A stretch of DNA of 64,000 nucleotides, from assembly GCF_001698125.1 (NCBI RefSeq), contig NZ_CP013854.1:3224001-3288000 (forward strand), written 5' to 3'. A model generated the notes under the pieces. The model had not been told where the DNA came from and did not search any database. It worked only from the letters and a program-made list of their open reading frames with translations. Source of the stretch: Pseudonocardia sp. HH130630-07 (GTDB lineage: Bacteria; Actinomycetota; Actinomycetes; Mycobacteriales; Pseudonocardiaceae). Of the stretch, positions 44,361 to 51,572 are shown in pieces; the stretch's first letter is position 1; every line of letters starts with the position of its first letter. Both the position numbers and the translations under genes were made by a program.

Positions 44361-45258
44361 CTAGGGTGTGTCTCCCAATGCGCGGAGCCAGGTGACGATC
44401 GCCTTCAGGACGGCGCCGCCGCGGAAGGTCAGGGCGAGCTTGTCGTAACGGGTGGCCAGCCCGCGCCACTGCTTGACGTGGCAGAACCCGCGCTCGACGA
44501 CGTTGCGGTTTCGGTAGTCGACCGGATCGAATGCGGGCGGTCGGCCACCGCGTGAGCCCCGTCGTTTGCGGTGTCCCTGCTGGTCAGAGGGCTCCGGAAT
44601 GACAGCGATGATCCGGCGCTCGCGCAGGTGCCGGCGGATCGCGCGTGAGGAGTAGGCCTTGTCCGCGCGCACGCGTTCGGGCCGGGTCCGGGGTCGTCCC
44701 GGGCCCGGTCGGGCGATGCTCAGGTGCGCCATCAGGTGCGGAAACATTGGCGAGTCGCCGCCCTGGCCGGGGCCGAGGAGGACCACCAGCGGGCGGCCGT
44801 GCCCGTCAACGAGCTGGTGGATCTTCGTCGACAGCCCTCCGCGGGACCGTCCCAGCGCGTGATCTGCTGGTTCGGCGAGCAGATTCGTGTAGTTCGATCC
44901 GGCCCCCTGTGTCGCGCTTGAGGGTCGCGGCGTGCTGGTGGGCACGGATGATCGTGGAGTCCACGCTGACCGCCCACCCGAGCACCTCGGCGGCGTCGGC
45001 CTCGACCAGAAGAGCAGCCAGGATGTGGTCCCAGGTGCCGTCGCCGCTGTAGCGGCGGTGCCGCTTCCACAACGTCTGCCACGGCCCGAACTCGGCTGGG
45101 ACGTCGCGCCAGGGAAGCCCGCACCGATACCGGTAGATGATCCCCTCGAGCACCCGGCGGTCATCGCGGAACGGGCGCCCGCGACGACCCTCGGAAGAGG
45201 GCAACAGCGGCGCCAGACGGGCCCACTGGACATCAGTCAGGACAGCGGTACGCGGCAC
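44361..45258 (-). CDS. IS5-family transposase with internal frameshift (OrfA/OrfB)
   Basis: OrfA starts at 45258 (MPRTAVLTDVQWARLAPLLP) and contains the DUF4096-like N-terminus and the first catalytic Asp in SVDSTIIRAHQHAA. OrfB continues in another frame from about 44905 with HALGRSRGGLSTKIHQLVDG, RADKAYSSRAIR and NVVERGFCHVKQWRGLATRY, the DDE end. Joining them needs a +1 (or -2) shift at a run of five G on the minus strand near 44903-44907. IS5 relatives of the IS427 type use programmed frameshifting. The final stop TAG lies in the duplicated CTAG target outside the element. Confidence 0.9.
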
Positions 45259-46647: not shown

Positions 46648-48423
46648 TCAGTCCTTGATCTCGCAGATCACGGTGCCCTGGGAGACCGAGGCGCCCTGCT
46701 CGGCGGTCAGGCCGGTGACGGTGCCGTCCTTGGTGGCGGTGACCGGGTTCTCCATCTTCATCGCCTCGAGGACGAGGATCAGGTCACCGGTCGCGACGGT
46801 GTCGCCGTCGGACACCGCGACCTTGATGATCGTGCCCTGCATCGGCGCGGTCACCGCGTCGCCGGAGACCTTCGCCCCGCCGCCGGCTCCGCTGCGCCGC
46901 CGCGGCGCGCCCTTCGCCGGGCCGCCGTTGCCGCCGCCCCCGCCGAGCGCGAGGTCACCGGGCAGCGACACCTCCAGCCGTCGCCCGCCGACCTCGACCA
47001 CCACGGTCCGGCGCTCCGCGGCCGACTCGTCGGCACCGGCACCACCGGCGAACGGCGGCACCGTGTTGTCCCACTCGGTCTCGATCCACCGGGTGTGCAC
47101 GGCGAAGGCCTCACCGGTCGTGGCGGTGAACGCCGGGTCGGTCACGACGAGCCGGTGGAAGTCCAGCACGGTGGCCATGCCCTCGACCCGGAACTCCTCC
47201 AGCGCGCGGCGGGCCCGCTGCAGGGCCTGCTGCCGGTCGGCGCCGGAGACGATCAGCTTCGCCAGCAGCGAGTCGAACTGGCCGCCGACGACCGACCCGT
47301 CCTCGACACCGGCGTCGAGCCGGACGCCGGGGCCCGCCGGGTAGTGGATCCGCTCGACGGTGCCCGGTGCCGGGAGGAAGTTGCGCCCGGCGTCCTCGCC
47401 GTTGATCCGGAACTCGATCGCGTGCCCGCGCGGCTCCGGGTCCCCGCCGAGCTCCAGCTCCTTGCCCTCGGCGATCCGGAACATCTGCCGGACCAGGTCG
47501 ATGCCGGTGGTCTCCTCCGAGACCGGGTGCTCGACCTGCAGCCGGGTGTTCACCTCCAGGAAGGTGATCATCCCGTCCTCGCCGATGAGGAACTCGACGG
47601 TGCCCGCGCCGTAGTAGCCGGCCTCCGTGCAGATCGCCTTGGACGCCTCGTAGAGGGTGCTGCGCTGCTCGTCGGTCAGGAACGGGGCCGGAGCCTCCTC
47701 GACCAGCTTCTGGAAGCGGCGCTGCAGCGAGCAGTCCCGGGTGCCCACGACGACGACGTTGCCGTGCTGGTCGGCCAGCACCTGGGTCTCGACGTGCCGC
47801 GGGCGGTCGAGGTAGCGCTCGACGAAGCACTCCCCACGGCCGAACGCCGCGGTGGCCTCCCGGACGGCGGACTCGTAGAGCTCGGCGACCTCGGAGCGCT
47901 CGCGGGCGACCTTCATGCCGCGTCCGCCGCCGCCGAACGCGGCCTTGATCGCCACCGGCAGGCCGTGCTCGTCGGCGAAGGCGAGCACCTCGTCGGCGTC
48001 GCCGACCGGGTTCTTCGTGCCCGGGACCAGGGGCGCACCGGCCCGCATCGCGATGTGCCGGGCGGTGACCTTGTCGCCCAGGTCGCGGATCGACTGCGGG
48101 GACGGCCCGATCCAGGTGATCCCCGCGTCGATGACGGCCTGGGCGAAGTCGGCGTTCTCGGACAGGAAGCCGTAGCCGGGGTGGATCGCGTCCGCCCCGG
48201 CCTGCTGCGCGGCGGCGACGACCTTGCCGATGTCGAGGTAGGACTCGGCCGCGGTGCTGCCGCCCAGCGCGAAGGCCTCGTCGGCGAGCCGGACGAACGG
48301 GGCGTCGCGGTCCGGGTCGGCGTAGACGGCGACGCTCCCCAGCCCCGCGTCCCTCGCGGCCCGGATCACCCGGACGGCGATCTCTCCCCGGTTGGCGACG
48401 AGCACTTTGCGCAGTGCGGGCAC
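46648..48423 (-). CDS. accA3: Acyl-CoA carboxylase alpha subunit (biotin carboxylase-BCCP, AccA3-like)
   Basis: A 591-residue subunit that carboxylates biotin with ATP and bicarbonate and carries the biotin. The biotin carboxylase domain begins [20 protein letters not shown] (in part), has the ATP-grasp glycine loop [13 protein letters not shown], and the metal/active-site block [15 protein letters not shown] Gly/Ala-rich linker leads to the biotinyl domain at the C-terminus with the biotinylation site EAMKMEN. GTG 48423 follows GGAGGAG. It would work with the beta and epsilon subunits encoded at 58.6-60.5 kb, making malonyl- or methylmalonyl-CoA for lipid synthesis. Confidence 0.95.
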
Positions 48424-48567: not shown

Positions 48568-49077
48568 TCAGGAGCCGATCGGGCCGCGCCGCACCACGTC
48601 CCGCCACCGCAGCAGGCGCCGGGCGAACGCGGACCGCGGGACCGGGGCGGAGCGCCCGTCGTAGCGGAACGCGATCTCGCGCTCGTCCAGCTCACGGACC
48701 GCGCCCGCGCCGAGCAGGCCGGCCGCGGCGAGCTCGCGCGCCAGGTCCCAGCCCTCCCGGTCGGCGCCGTAGGGCGGGACGCCGGCGAACCGCCGGGCGT
48801 AGAGCGCGGCCCAGCCCGGGCCGGCGTCGTCGGCCAGCAGCGGCCACTGGACCGCGGTCCGCGCGGCGCGGGTGCGCAGCAGCGCGGACCGGGTGGCGGC
48901 GAGCAGCGGCTCCGGGAAGCCGGCGGGATCGGGCCCGCCCGCGACGAGCGCGGCGACCAGCGCCGCCTGCCGCTGGGCCAGTGGTGCGGCCCGGCCGGTG
49001 CGCGACGCGGACCGGGCCGGGCAGCGCCGCGATGCCGGGAGCGGGGTCCCGGGATCGGGTGGCCACAGGGCGTTCAC
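48568..49077 (-). CDS. Putative partner protein of the DUF692 enzyme
   Basis: A 169-residue protein of no family I can name with certainty. The N-terminal third is basic and Pro-rich. The rest is helical with LYARRFAGVPPYGADREGWDLA (in part), ELDEREIAFRYDGRSAPVPRSAFARRLLRWRDVV (in part). The GTG start overlaps the DUF692 stop by 4 bases (GTGA), so the two are coupled. DUF692 enzymes such as MbnB and TglH need a small partner (MbnC, TglI) that recruits the substrate peptide. By position and size this gene is the candidate for that role here (inference). Confidence 0.65.
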   Translation of the reverse strand: MNALWPPDPGTPLPASRRCPARSASRTGRAAPLAQRQAALVAALVAGGPDPAGFPEPLLAATRSALLRTRAARTAVQWPLLADDAGPGWAALYARRFAGVPPYGADREGWDLARELAAAGLLGAGAVRELDEREIAFRYDGRSAPVPRSAFARRLLRWRDVVRRGPIGS

Positions 49078-49952
49078 GACGGCACCCCGGTGGCCGGTGC
49101 CCGGCACGGCGACGGGTGCCCGGCGGCCGCCGCGATCGCCGCCAGCTCGGCCGCCAGCTCGGCCGCGGGCGGGTAGGCGCCGTCGCGTTCCAGCATCACC
49201 GGCGGCGGCTCGGGGAGCTGCCCGACGGTGTGCGCCAGCAGGTCGAGGACCTCCGGCCCGACCGGCGCGGTGTGCGTGTCGTGGACCAGGCCGTCGTGGT
49301 CGGCGCTGCCCGCGACGTGGCAGTACGCGATCGCCCCCGGCGGGAGGACGGCGAGCAGCGCGTCGATGTCGGCCCGCGGGTCGCGGCCCCGGTTGCGGGC
49401 GTTGACCCCCACGTTCGCCACGTCCAGCAGCAGCGGGGCGCCGGTCCGCTCGTGCAGCCGTAGCAGGAACCCGGCCTCGTCGAACTCGTCGTCGGGCCAG
49501 TCGAACAGGGCGGCGATCGGTTCCAGGGCGAGCGGGACGTCGAGCTCGGACCGGGTGCGCGCGACGTTGCCGGCCAGCACGTCCAGCGCCTCGCGGGTCC
49601 GCGGCAGCGGCAGCAGGTGCCCGGCCTCCATGCCGCCCGCCCGGACGAACGCGACGTGCTCGCTCGCGAGCACGGCCCCGGTGGCCCCGGTGCAGGCCGC
49701 GAGGTGCGCGACCCGGGCCGGGTCCAGGCCGTCGGGCGAGCCGAGCGAGAGCCGGACCCCGTGCACGACGACGTCGTGGCGCAGCAGGGACGCCGATACG
49801 TCGTCGCGCGCGGAGCCCGGCCGGATGGACTCGGCGATCACCTCGTGGAAGCCGAGCCCGGGCACGTCGTCCAGGGCGGCGGCGATCGCGCCCCGCCAGC
49901 CGGCGCCCGTGCCGCGCAGCCGGCGGTCGCCGGTGTCCCGGCGCGCCCCCAC
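49074..49952 (-). CDS. DUF692-family multinuclear iron-dependent oxidase (MbnB/TglH/BufB-like)
   Basis: A 292-residue TIM-barrel enzyme of the DUF692 family. The family blocks are in order: VPGLGFHEVIAES, VVVHGVRLSLGSPDG, LASEHVAFVRAGG and HLLPLPRTREAL, LALEPIAALFDWPDDEFDEAGFL (in part), LLLDVANVGVNARN, and YCHVAGSADHDGLVHDTHTAPV (in part). These hold the His/Asp/Glu ligands of the iron cluster. Characterised members oxidatively modify Cys residues in peptide substrates. GTG 49952 follows GGAG by about 3 bases. It is downstream of a membrane protein with a Gly/Cys tail, its probable substrate. Confidence 0.85.
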   Translation of the reverse strand: MGARRDTGDRRLRGTGAGWRGAIAAALDDVPGLGFHEVIAESIRPGSARDDVSASLLRHDVVVHGVRLSLGSPDGLDPARVAHLAACTGATGAVLASEHVAFVRAGGMEAGHLLPLPRTREALDVLAGNVARTRSELDVPLALEPIAALFDWPDDEFDEAGFLLRLHERTGAPLLLDVANVGVNARNRGRDPRADIDALLAVLPPGAIAYCHVAGSADHDGLVHDTHTAPVGPEVLDLLAHTVGQLPEPPPVMLERDGAYPPAAELAAELAAIAAAAGHPSPCRAPATGVPS

Positions 49953-49995
49953 AGCTCCACACCCCCCGGTGGCGGAGCCGCGGGGACGCACCGGC

Positions 49996-50022
49996 CGGTC
50001 GCGGGGCGCCGCCCCGCGACCG
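49996..50022 (-). terminator. 12-bp hairpin directly after the TIGR04222 gene
   Basis: CGGTCGCGGGGC and GCCCCGCGACCG pair perfectly around a 3-base loop, and the hairpin abuts the stop codon at 50023. No U-rich tail follows. Placed between a putative precursor gene and its modifying enzyme, it may act as an attenuator or a messenger-stabilising hairpin instead of a full terminator. Confidence 0.7.
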
Positions 50023-51006
50023 TCAGCCGCCGCAGCCACCGCCACCGCCACCGCCACCGCCGCCGCCGCCGCAGCCGCCTCCGCTGCCGCCGTCACCGCC
50101 GGAGAACCCGCCGCCCCCGAAGAACCCGCCGTCACCGGAGGACCCGCCCGATCCCGACGAGCCGGACCAGCTCCCGCCGCCCCCGCCCCCGCCGCCGAGC
50201 GCGGCGGCCTTCTGCGCGGCCAGCTCCTCGGCGAACGCCGGCTCGGACGCGAGCATCGCCCCCATGCCGAACGCACCCACGCTCAGCGCCGCCGCCCTCG
50301 CCCCGGCCGACGTCCAGTCCGGCCGCATCGCCGGCGACAGCACGTCGTGCCGGGCCCGGACCTCGGCGAGCGCGGTGGTGCCGATCCGGGTCCGGTCCGG
50401 TGCCCGCACGGCGAGCACCACGGTCACCACGCCCAGCACCACGACGAGCAGCACCAGGAACCCGACCGGGCGGCCGTTGCCGACCCCGGCCGCCAACCGG
50501 GCCGCGCCCAGCACGCAGACCGCGCCCGGCAGCCACGCCGTCGCCCGGTACCGGCTCCGGTCGCCCGCGGAGAGCAGCAGGCCGATCCCCTCCAGCCGCC
50601 GCCCGATGCGGGCCAGTTCGAGACGGACCGGCTCGTGGGTGTGCAGGGTCCGGCGCGGCGTCAGCCGGTACGCGCTGCGGTGGATCGCCTGCTGCAGCGG
50701 CGTCGCCGCCCGGGTCGGCCGGTTGCCGGCCTGGACCTGGCCCGACGTGCGGCGCGACGTGACCACGGTGCCGTCGACGTGCATCGCCGACAGCGCCGCG
50801 TACACGGCCAGTTCGGGGCCGCCGTTGAGGTAGGCGACATCCTCGGGCCGGGTGTCGAGGCCGTGCAGGCCGTACGGGTCGCCGCGCGCGATGTGCCGCC
50901 GTGCACGCACGGCGAGCAGTACGGCGACGACCCCGATCACCCCGTAGAGGACCAGGAACGTCGACCCGGGGATCCCCCAGGTCGCATCGGTGAGGTTCGT
51001 GCCCAT
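50023..51006 (-). CDS. TIGR04222-type membrane protein with Gly/Ser/Cys-rich C-terminal tail
   Basis: A 327-residue protein. A first membrane helix (about 14-34) precedes a cytoplasmic domain with DTRPEDVAYLNGGPELAVYAAL (in part), the mark of the TIGR04222 family. Two more helices lie at about 160-200. After SEPAFAEELAAQKAAALGG, the last about 65 residues are nearly only Gly and Ser with Phe and Trp, ending in Gly tracts holding Cys312 and Cys325, separated by 12 Gly. ATG 51006 is preceded by GGGGGTGG. With the DUF692 gene downstream, the tail is a plausible target for cysteine modification. Confidence 0.8.
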   Translation of the reverse strand: MGTNLTDATWGIPGSTFLVLYGVIGVVAVLLAVRARRHIARGDPYGLHGLDTRPEDVAYLNGGPELAVYAALSAMHVDGTVVTSRRTSGQVQAGNRPTRAATPLQQAIHRSAYRLTPRRTLHTHEPVRLELARIGRRLEGIGLLLSAGDRSRYRATAWLPGAVCVLGAARLAAGVGNGRPVGFLVLLVVVLGVVTVVLAVRAPDRTRIGTTALAEVRARHDVLSPAMRPDWTSAGARAAALSVGAFGMGAMLASEPAFAEELAAQKAAALGGGGGGGGSWSGSSGSGGSSGDGGFFGGGGFSGGDGGSGGGCGGGGGGGGGGGGCGG

Positions 51007-51122: not shown

Positions 51123-51572
51123 TCAGGCGACGGCGGCCCGGACCTGGTTCTTGATCCGCGTGAGCATCGCGGCGATCCCGCGCAGCCGCAGCGGGCTGAC
51201 CGCCTCGGCGAGGCCCAGGTCGGTGTAGAAGTCGTCCGGTACGGCGAGCACCGCCGCGGCCGGCTGACCGTCCAGCCCGGTCCGCATGATCGAGGCGAAG
51301 CCCCGGGTGGTCGGGGCCTCCCGCGGTGCGGAGAAGAACAGGTGCACCGGCCGGTCGCCGTCGGCCCCGACCTCGACGGCCAGGAACAGCGGCGACTGGC
51401 ACTCGTGGACCTGCTCCATGGTGTCGGCCGCGTCGGCGTAGCGCTCCGGGAGGTCCGGCAGCTCCTGGGACAGCTCCAGCAGCAGCTGCAGCCGGTCCTT
51501 CGGGCCGAGGGCCGCGAAGTCGTCCACCAGCTCTGCCAGGTCCGGCGGGAGCTGCTCGGTCCGTTCGGTCAT
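51123..51572 (-). CDS. sufE: SufE-family sulfur acceptor protein
   Basis: A 149-residue SufE protein that accepts persulfide sulfur from a cysteine desulfurase for Fe-S cluster or thiocofactor synthesis. The active Cys lies in [11 protein letters not shown] (about residue 59), and the rest follows the family ([17 protein letters not shown]). The ATG overlaps the stop of the rhodanese gene by 4 bases, so sulfur transfer proteins are co-translated. The same sseA-sufE order occurs in M. tuberculosis (Rv3283-Rv3284, from memory). Confidence 0.92.

Follow-up and report, generated by a model that had tools for sequence, protein, structure and literature searches.

We have analyzed a stretch of 64,000 nucleotides from the genome of Pseudonocardia sp. 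HH130630-07 (contig NZ_CP013854.1, positions 3,224,001 to 3,288,000, called the window here as a whole), and specifically a group of three genes that would form a single maturation cassette. According to this reading, to which we assign a probability of about 0.64, an enzyme of the DUF692 or multinuclear iron oxidase (MNIO) family and a small partner protein would oxidize the cysteines found in the cytosolic tail of a membrane protein of the TIGR04222 family. The central idea, that TIGR04222 tails are MNIO substrates, is already in print, since it was proposed by Antoine et al., 2025 (PMC12452194).

The three genes are located on the minus strand, closely spaced, with a SufE-like gene on one side and an accA3-like gene on the other. 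The features of the cassette are the following (pLDDT stands for the predicted local distance difference test score of the structure model):

50023..51006, minus strand: TIGR04222 membrane protein of 327 residues, the putative substrate (NCBIfam TIGR04222, 123 bits over a curated cut-off of 43)
50026..50193, minus strand: disordered Gly/Ser/Cys C-terminal tail, residues 272-327, ending in CGG (sequence; pLDDT below 50 for residues 275-327)
50071..50073, minus strand: codon of tail Cys312 (sequence)
50032..50034, minus strand: codon of tail Cys325, the third residue from the C-terminus (sequence)
49074..49952, minus strand: DUF692/MNIO enzyme, the start being assumed to be the GTG at 49952 (PF05114, 232 bits)
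48568..49077, minus strand: partner protein of 169 residues, probably PME-type 2 (homologues downstream of MNIO genes; helical model)

The TIGR04222 frame opens with an ATG at 51006, the same start as in the Pseudonocardia relative L246, and its 327 codons are followed by a stop at 50023-50025. Cys312 and Cys325 are exactly 12 glycines apart, and residues 275-327 are predicted to be disordered. DUF2282, the signature of bufferin substrates, was not among the profile matches of this protein. The enzyme matched PF05114 far above the cut-off of 25 bits (E 1e-68) and could be aligned to the structures 3bww and 8hci. It keeps the seven residues shared by every one of the 108 aligned MNIOs (H85, E130, D163, N166, H198, D211 and H213), and also H50 and E241. 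Over the 20 columns of D, E, H or N with at least 93% conservation in that alignment it deviates only at E8. We take these conserved residues to be iron ligands. Among the NCBIfam equivalog models the nearest by score was BufB (161 bits, cut-off 310), followed by HvfB (137, cut-off 360), ApyH (55, cut-off 400), ChrH (27, cut-off 600) and MbnB (23, cut-off 325), and none of the cut-offs was reached. The nearest named relative, again L246, showed 77% identity. The open reading frame (ORF) of the partner starts with a GTG inside the GTGA that closes the MNIO gene, and the genome has a single MNIO match and a single TIGR04222 match. An earlier, sequence-only reading of this DNA had described these three minus-strand genes, the Gly/Ser-rich tail whose two Cys are spaced by 12 Gly, the DUF692 homologue and the small protein joined to it by the GTGA overlap; sequence and profile matches, together with the conserved residues of metal-site type, bear out this description, the rich part of the tail being about the last 55 residues.

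The association between the two families was also apparent in the relatives. Among 298 genomes of the same order we found MNIO in 106 and TIGR04222 matches in 131, over the cut-off in 119. Considering the latter, both families were present in 101 genomes, only TIGR04222 in 18, only MNIO in 5 and neither in 174 (Fisher p 1.6e-53, with kinship ignored). The arrangement was systematic. A total of 100 out of 119 MNIO matches were within 3 kb of a TIGR04222 gene (among the TIGR04222 matches listed), and in every one of these 100 the TIGR04222 gene was located upstream on the same strand. Of the 51 named loci, 49 showed the order TIGR04222, MNIO, partner (in one of these an additional TIGR04222 gene came ahead of the partner), while the other two were cut by contig ends. 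In a sample of 296 genomes from the phylum, MNIO was present in 15 and TIGR04222 over the cut-off in 11. With horizontal mobility in mind, we compared the flanks across nine genera. They aligned in six, and less than a tenth of the flanks was shared by most pairs of genera g8 (14 of 20), g39 (12 of 20) and g27 (10 of 12).

The cysteines of the tail were correlated with the presence of the enzyme, which is new with respect to the published work. In 97 of 100 genomes with MNIO (98 plus G101 and G008; the 101st, G112, was unreadable) some TIGR04222 protein carried two or more Cys among its last 60 residues, against 4 of 18 without it, where G146, with an interrupted frame, was scored as Cys-free. 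The tally of tails covered 149 TIGR04222 proteins, after removal of one ORF of G112 cut by a contig end. Cys was present after the domain in 110 of the 115 complete proteins linked to an MNIO gene. Within these 110, the tail ended in CGG in 93 and had Cys within the last ten residues in 109, and the Cys were nearly always preceded by Ser or Gly (480 of 495) and followed by Gly or Ser (487 of 495). The unlinked TIGR04222 proteins of genomes with MNIO gave a divided picture, since 14 of 15 had Cys in the window's family but none of the 14 from family f15 did.

The near-constant presence of the partner after the MNIO gene is another addition to the published picture. Once four MNIO fragment matches had been removed (three of G247 and one of G033), a homologue of the partner was found directly downstream in 94 of the 96 TIGR04222-linked MNIO loci. 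The partner profile searched alone gave 62 places in 60 of 296 genomes of the class; in all the 55 places that were fetched there was an MNIO match beside it, and the remaining seven belonged to the window's own order. The window partner lies after the MNIO gene and carries no DUF2063 signature, the two marks of PME-type 2, and no Pfam or NCBIfam model matched it at E up to 1. Its model is helical (pLDDT 88), and the partners of TglHI and MbnBC surface weakly in its fold search. Toward a DUF2063 profile for comparison, a plasmid collection gave four matches (26-40% identity), and actinodefensin-associated protein B matched 1 of 43 partners (E 0.0042). The association of TIGR04222 with DUF692 beyond chance and the tail Cys conserved among relatives, on which the sequence-only reading made itself depend, are thus mostly borne out, as is a small protein behind the MNIO gene in nearly all loci; the metal binding or oxidant handling that it suggested would be speculative. 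Its proposal that the tail of a membrane protein is the substrate is mostly supported by co-occurrence, conserved Cys and partner; it was not new, and the loci poor in Cys described below are exceptions to it.

We have found a similar tail in proteins of another kind. Of the 55 MNIO-partner loci of the class, 28 have a TIGR04222 protein whose last 60 residues include two or more Cys and 7 have a short protein with a Cys tail instead (L366, L368, L369, L371, L374, L375 and L385). With three more from the order (L165, L166 and L167), there are ten MNIO-partner loci without TIGR04222 match that code for short proteins, of roughly 85-119 residues, with a similar Gly/Ser/Cys tail, often containing His. 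Eleven short proteins were read, with assumed starts, and ten of them had one strong N-terminal helix (19-residue hydropathy 2.5-3.3), the eleventh, from L374, having no strong helix. This suggests that the tail is shared and the anchor exchangeable. Most of the short-anchor genes lie after the MNIO gene. Antoine et al., 2025 gathered precursor candidates from the genes preceding MNIO, and these short proteins might correspond to the very small adjamnio-V proteins that they describe as encoded behind MNIO genes. In addition, L285, L287, L288 and L289, from Embleya and a Streptomyces, showed an extra frame, not of the TIGR04222 family, that overlaps the partner gene or is located after it and contains a His-rich run and a long array of SSC.

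The charges around the helices are informative about the side on which the tail is found. Three helices were clear in 93 TIGR04222 proteins; among these, the charges favored an external N-terminus in 89, and the positive charge after helix 3 was larger than that of the loop between helices 2 and 3 in all 93 (mean 5.8 versus 0.8). The ten short proteins with a single helix have 5-9 Arg/Lys directly after it, and in eight of them there is none or one before. This pattern of positive charge suggests a tail that faces the cytoplasm, the compartment of the MNIO, contrary to the published periplasmic placement.

Putting these data together, we propose that the TIGR04222 protein would be inserted by three helices with its N-terminus outside (in the window two are apparent by hydropathy, the third coming from the model and the relatives), and that the disordered tail would stay on the cytoplasmic side. 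The small DUF2063-like partner would help the MNIO to bind its substrate. The MNIO would then oxidize the tail Cys within their G/S-Cys-G/S motifs. The products would most likely be sulfur heterocycles, for example thiooxazoles as in the nearest named relatives, the bufferin enzymes. The outcome might be a membrane-tethered array of modified Cys binding a soft metal, copper being our best guess. Neither export nor leader cleavage would be needed. More tentatively, and falling a little short of an even chance, the MNIO-partner pairs of Actinomycetes would be a class that oxidizes Cys in place on Gly/Ser/Cys(/His) tails facing the cytosol, the tail module being carried by unrelated anchors (TIGR04222 or single-pass) without export or leader removal. 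This would be protein modification that builds a metal-binding brush on the inner face of the membrane and not natural product biosynthesis. If true, a widespread actinobacterial enzyme family modifies membrane proteins instead of making peptides, and the chemistry of ribosomally synthesized and post-translationally modified peptides (RiPPs) is extended to permanent, membrane-fixed metal sites. RiPPs in the strict sense also lose a leader to become mature peptides; the putative precursor here has 327 residues, and no sign of its cleavage was seen. The short-anchor proteins would provide small and easily expressed substrates for experiments.

Several findings weigh against the cassette as proposed. 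All our genome and locus counts ignore relatedness. Five of the 115 linked TIGR04222 proteins have no Cys, and the four genomes with two tail Cys and no MNIO, all of family f16, have tails ending in Cys (their loci L181, L188, L189 and L191 code for TIGR04222-like proteins with Gly-rich tails). In the class, the only TIGR04222 protein of 12 of the 55 loci has one Cys or none in its last 60 residues (11 of the 12 have none), and a further 8 loci have no local Cys tail on any protein, L356 among them being at a contig end. Family f18 contributes 24 of the 55 loci: a Cys tail is present in 9, there is a TIGR04222 protein poor in Cys in 11, and 4 have neither. Twenty loci had no local Cys tail, and for 19 of them (G769 was left out) we searched elsewhere in the genome, reading 12 of 23 matches. 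Cys-tailed TIGR04222 proteins were found in three genomes of family f99 (G701, G709 and G784). In a fourth genome, G650 (L404), the Cys array of a TIGR04222 frame continues into partner-like sequence, either a fusion or a frame error, and in four f18 genomes there were only single-Cys tails among the matches read. For f18, the counts and the single-Cys tails point either to another substrate or to loss of the tail. The likeness of the partner to DUF2063 is weak. With regard to topology, the window protein is outside the set of 93, since its hydropathy is above the limit for no more than two helices (the third, residues 158-176, is visible in the structure model), L366 and L369 have 5-6 Arg/Lys also before the helix, unless translation begins at a later in-frame ATG, and the tail could be brought outside by a marginal fourth hydrophobic segment, as PMC12452194 infers. 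Finally, no other full-length MNIO of its set diverges as much as that of the window, which is off at 7 of 75 columns with 95% conservation (the median is 0, and the two sequences with higher values are partial), and this copy of the cassette may be partly eroded, perhaps being lost.

The possible erosion just mentioned leads to the alternative that survives best, namely that the system of the window genome is decaying and yields no modified product, although relatives make one; it is compatible with the proposed cassette. Together with the divergence of the enzyme, the tail has only two Cys, when 97 of the 115 linked proteins have three to six. In the same genus, genome G247 (L132) has an MNIO match in three pieces and one tail Cys, with TIGR04222 and partner still matched, a situation due to decay or to sequencing error. 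However, the window enzyme keeps the seven invariant D/E/H/N columns, His50 and Glu241, and all three frames are open. We consider decay less likely than not.

The second alternative accepts the same modification, with the tail ending outside. The fourth segment would cross the membrane after the MNIO has acted, giving a cell surface metal buffer similar to a tethered bufferin. This is the placement of Antoine et al., 2025, who used AlphaFold models and topology to infer that the tail is periplasmic, and it is consistent with the mean net charge, +2.3 before and -1.3 after the fourth segment, and with the presence of at most one Lys/Arg in 90 of the 110 tails. The fourth segment, however, is marginal in most proteins (the 19-residue mean reaches 1.6 or more in 35 of the 110, the window value being 1.27) and appears broken in the window structure model, and the ten short single-helix relatives with that kind of tail carry 5-9 Arg/Lys immediately behind the helix. 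An external tail is thus rather improbable in our view.

A third possibility is that the tail binds metal by its unmodified thiols and that the MNIO acts on another target, nearby or elsewhere. The two tail Cys kept in the four MNIO-free genomes and the 20 of 55 class loci in which MNIO and partner persist although no tail with two Cys lies nearby would fit with this. Nevertheless, the strong correlation of Cys with MNIO and the fixed gene order argue for the enzyme acting on the tail. When one composition rule was applied to 191 loci, Cys tails outside TIGR04222 appeared in only 7, all of them with MNIO and partner, in a sample that is biased because the loci were chosen for these families. 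We find free thiols a poor explanation, with a low probability.

The genes at both sides of the window cassette are:

51123..51572, minus strand: SufE-like gene, probably outside the cassette (PF02657, 102 bits)
46648..48423, minus strand: accA3-like biotin carboxylase, on the other side (profile matches)

For Pseudonocardia, a 2016 paper (PMC5183585) suggested a bacteriocin cluster whose neighboring sulfur transferase modifies the peptide, in a passage that names a TIGR04222 peptide, a sulfur transferase and an accessory protein; we assume that its cluster E is the window locus. We regard this reading as very improbable: in G603 and G585, from other genera of the family, SufE is directly followed by accA3 without any cassette (SseA precedes SufE in G603), in G611 the two are separated by about 0.95 kb without cassette match, and among the 51 named loci the sufE/accA3 context surrounds the cassette only in Pseudonocardia. 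A link to sulfur transfer through the adjacent SseA and SufE was rejected on the same evidence, the context restricted to Pseudonocardia and SufE-accA3 without cassette in two relatives. The neighboring sulfur transfer genes are probably outside the system, to judge from these arrangements, and the 2016 suggestion was probably an effect of location.

Other neighbors were more frequent in the relatives. In the window's family, f1, 25 of the 31 loci with MNIO (such as L036, L054 and L106) had msrB directly upstream of the TIGR04222 gene on the same strand, and the same was found in six records of Embleya, Yinghuangia and Streptomyces (L283, L285, L287, L288, L289 and L296). The gap was 94-380 bp, with one exception of 1050. 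A convergent protoporphyrinogen oxidase gene was found downstream in 14 of the 25 f1 loci, in all six other records and also in 14 class loci. Both identities were checked on one example each, the msrB of L106 being over the TIGR00357 cut-off. Neither gene was seen beside the window cassette. These neighbors are hints of a link to oxidants or heme. The words methionine, MsrB and sulfoxide are absent from the main text of PMC12452194. Also in the window, positions 44361-45258 of the minus strand contain two overlapping frames that resemble, by eye, a frameshifted IS5-type transposase.

Two other ideas were abandoned. Release of the tail by signal peptidase was prompted by ASEPAFA-EE, which follows the last hydrophobic segment of the window protein and resembles a signal-peptidase site, and a loose AxA-like pattern appears near the helix end in 91 of the 115 linked proteins; it was dropped because the same place reads YPDxxL, DPALN or DADYS in other clades. 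The apparent loss of the tail in G203 was rejected as a natural experiment, as its TIGR04222 gene is not at the site found in its siblings.

Among the known systems, TglHI (pearlin) and MbnBC (methanobactin) also combine an MNIO with a partner protein. Their substrates are small peptides or carrier-like, without membrane anchor. Besides, the MbnB cut-off is not reached by the window enzyme. The bufferins (BufABC) and oxazolins are closer. They contain the nearest MNIO family by score, an operon of substrate, enzyme and partner and, in Buf_EGKCG, a Cys-Gly motif. In the published descriptions used here, however, their substrates have Sec signal peptides and their partners are PME-type 1, with DUF2063 and a RiPP recognition element, whereas in the window we find an integral membrane protein, a shorter partner and a score below the BufB cut-off. 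The closest likeness is to the TIGR04222-MNIO clusters of Antoine et al., 2025, which in the parts of that paper considered here share the families, the order, the C-proximal Cys in a Gly/Ser-rich region, the PME-type 2 partner and a distribution mostly in Actinomycetota. The window locus has the adjacent MNIO gene and the C-proximal Cys in a Gly/Ser-rich region by which those clusters are defined. There are differences as well. They give the partner in at least 10% of the clusters and describe many as partnerless, whereas it was present in 94 of our 96 loci, and proteins with short anchors are not described in the same parts of the paper. They place the tail in the periplasm and we argue for the cytoplasm; both placements are inferences, and the disagreement is directly decidable. 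What our analysis adds to the published picture is therefore the near-constant partner, the correlation between Cys and enzyme, the exchangeable anchors and the argument for a cytoplasmic tail.

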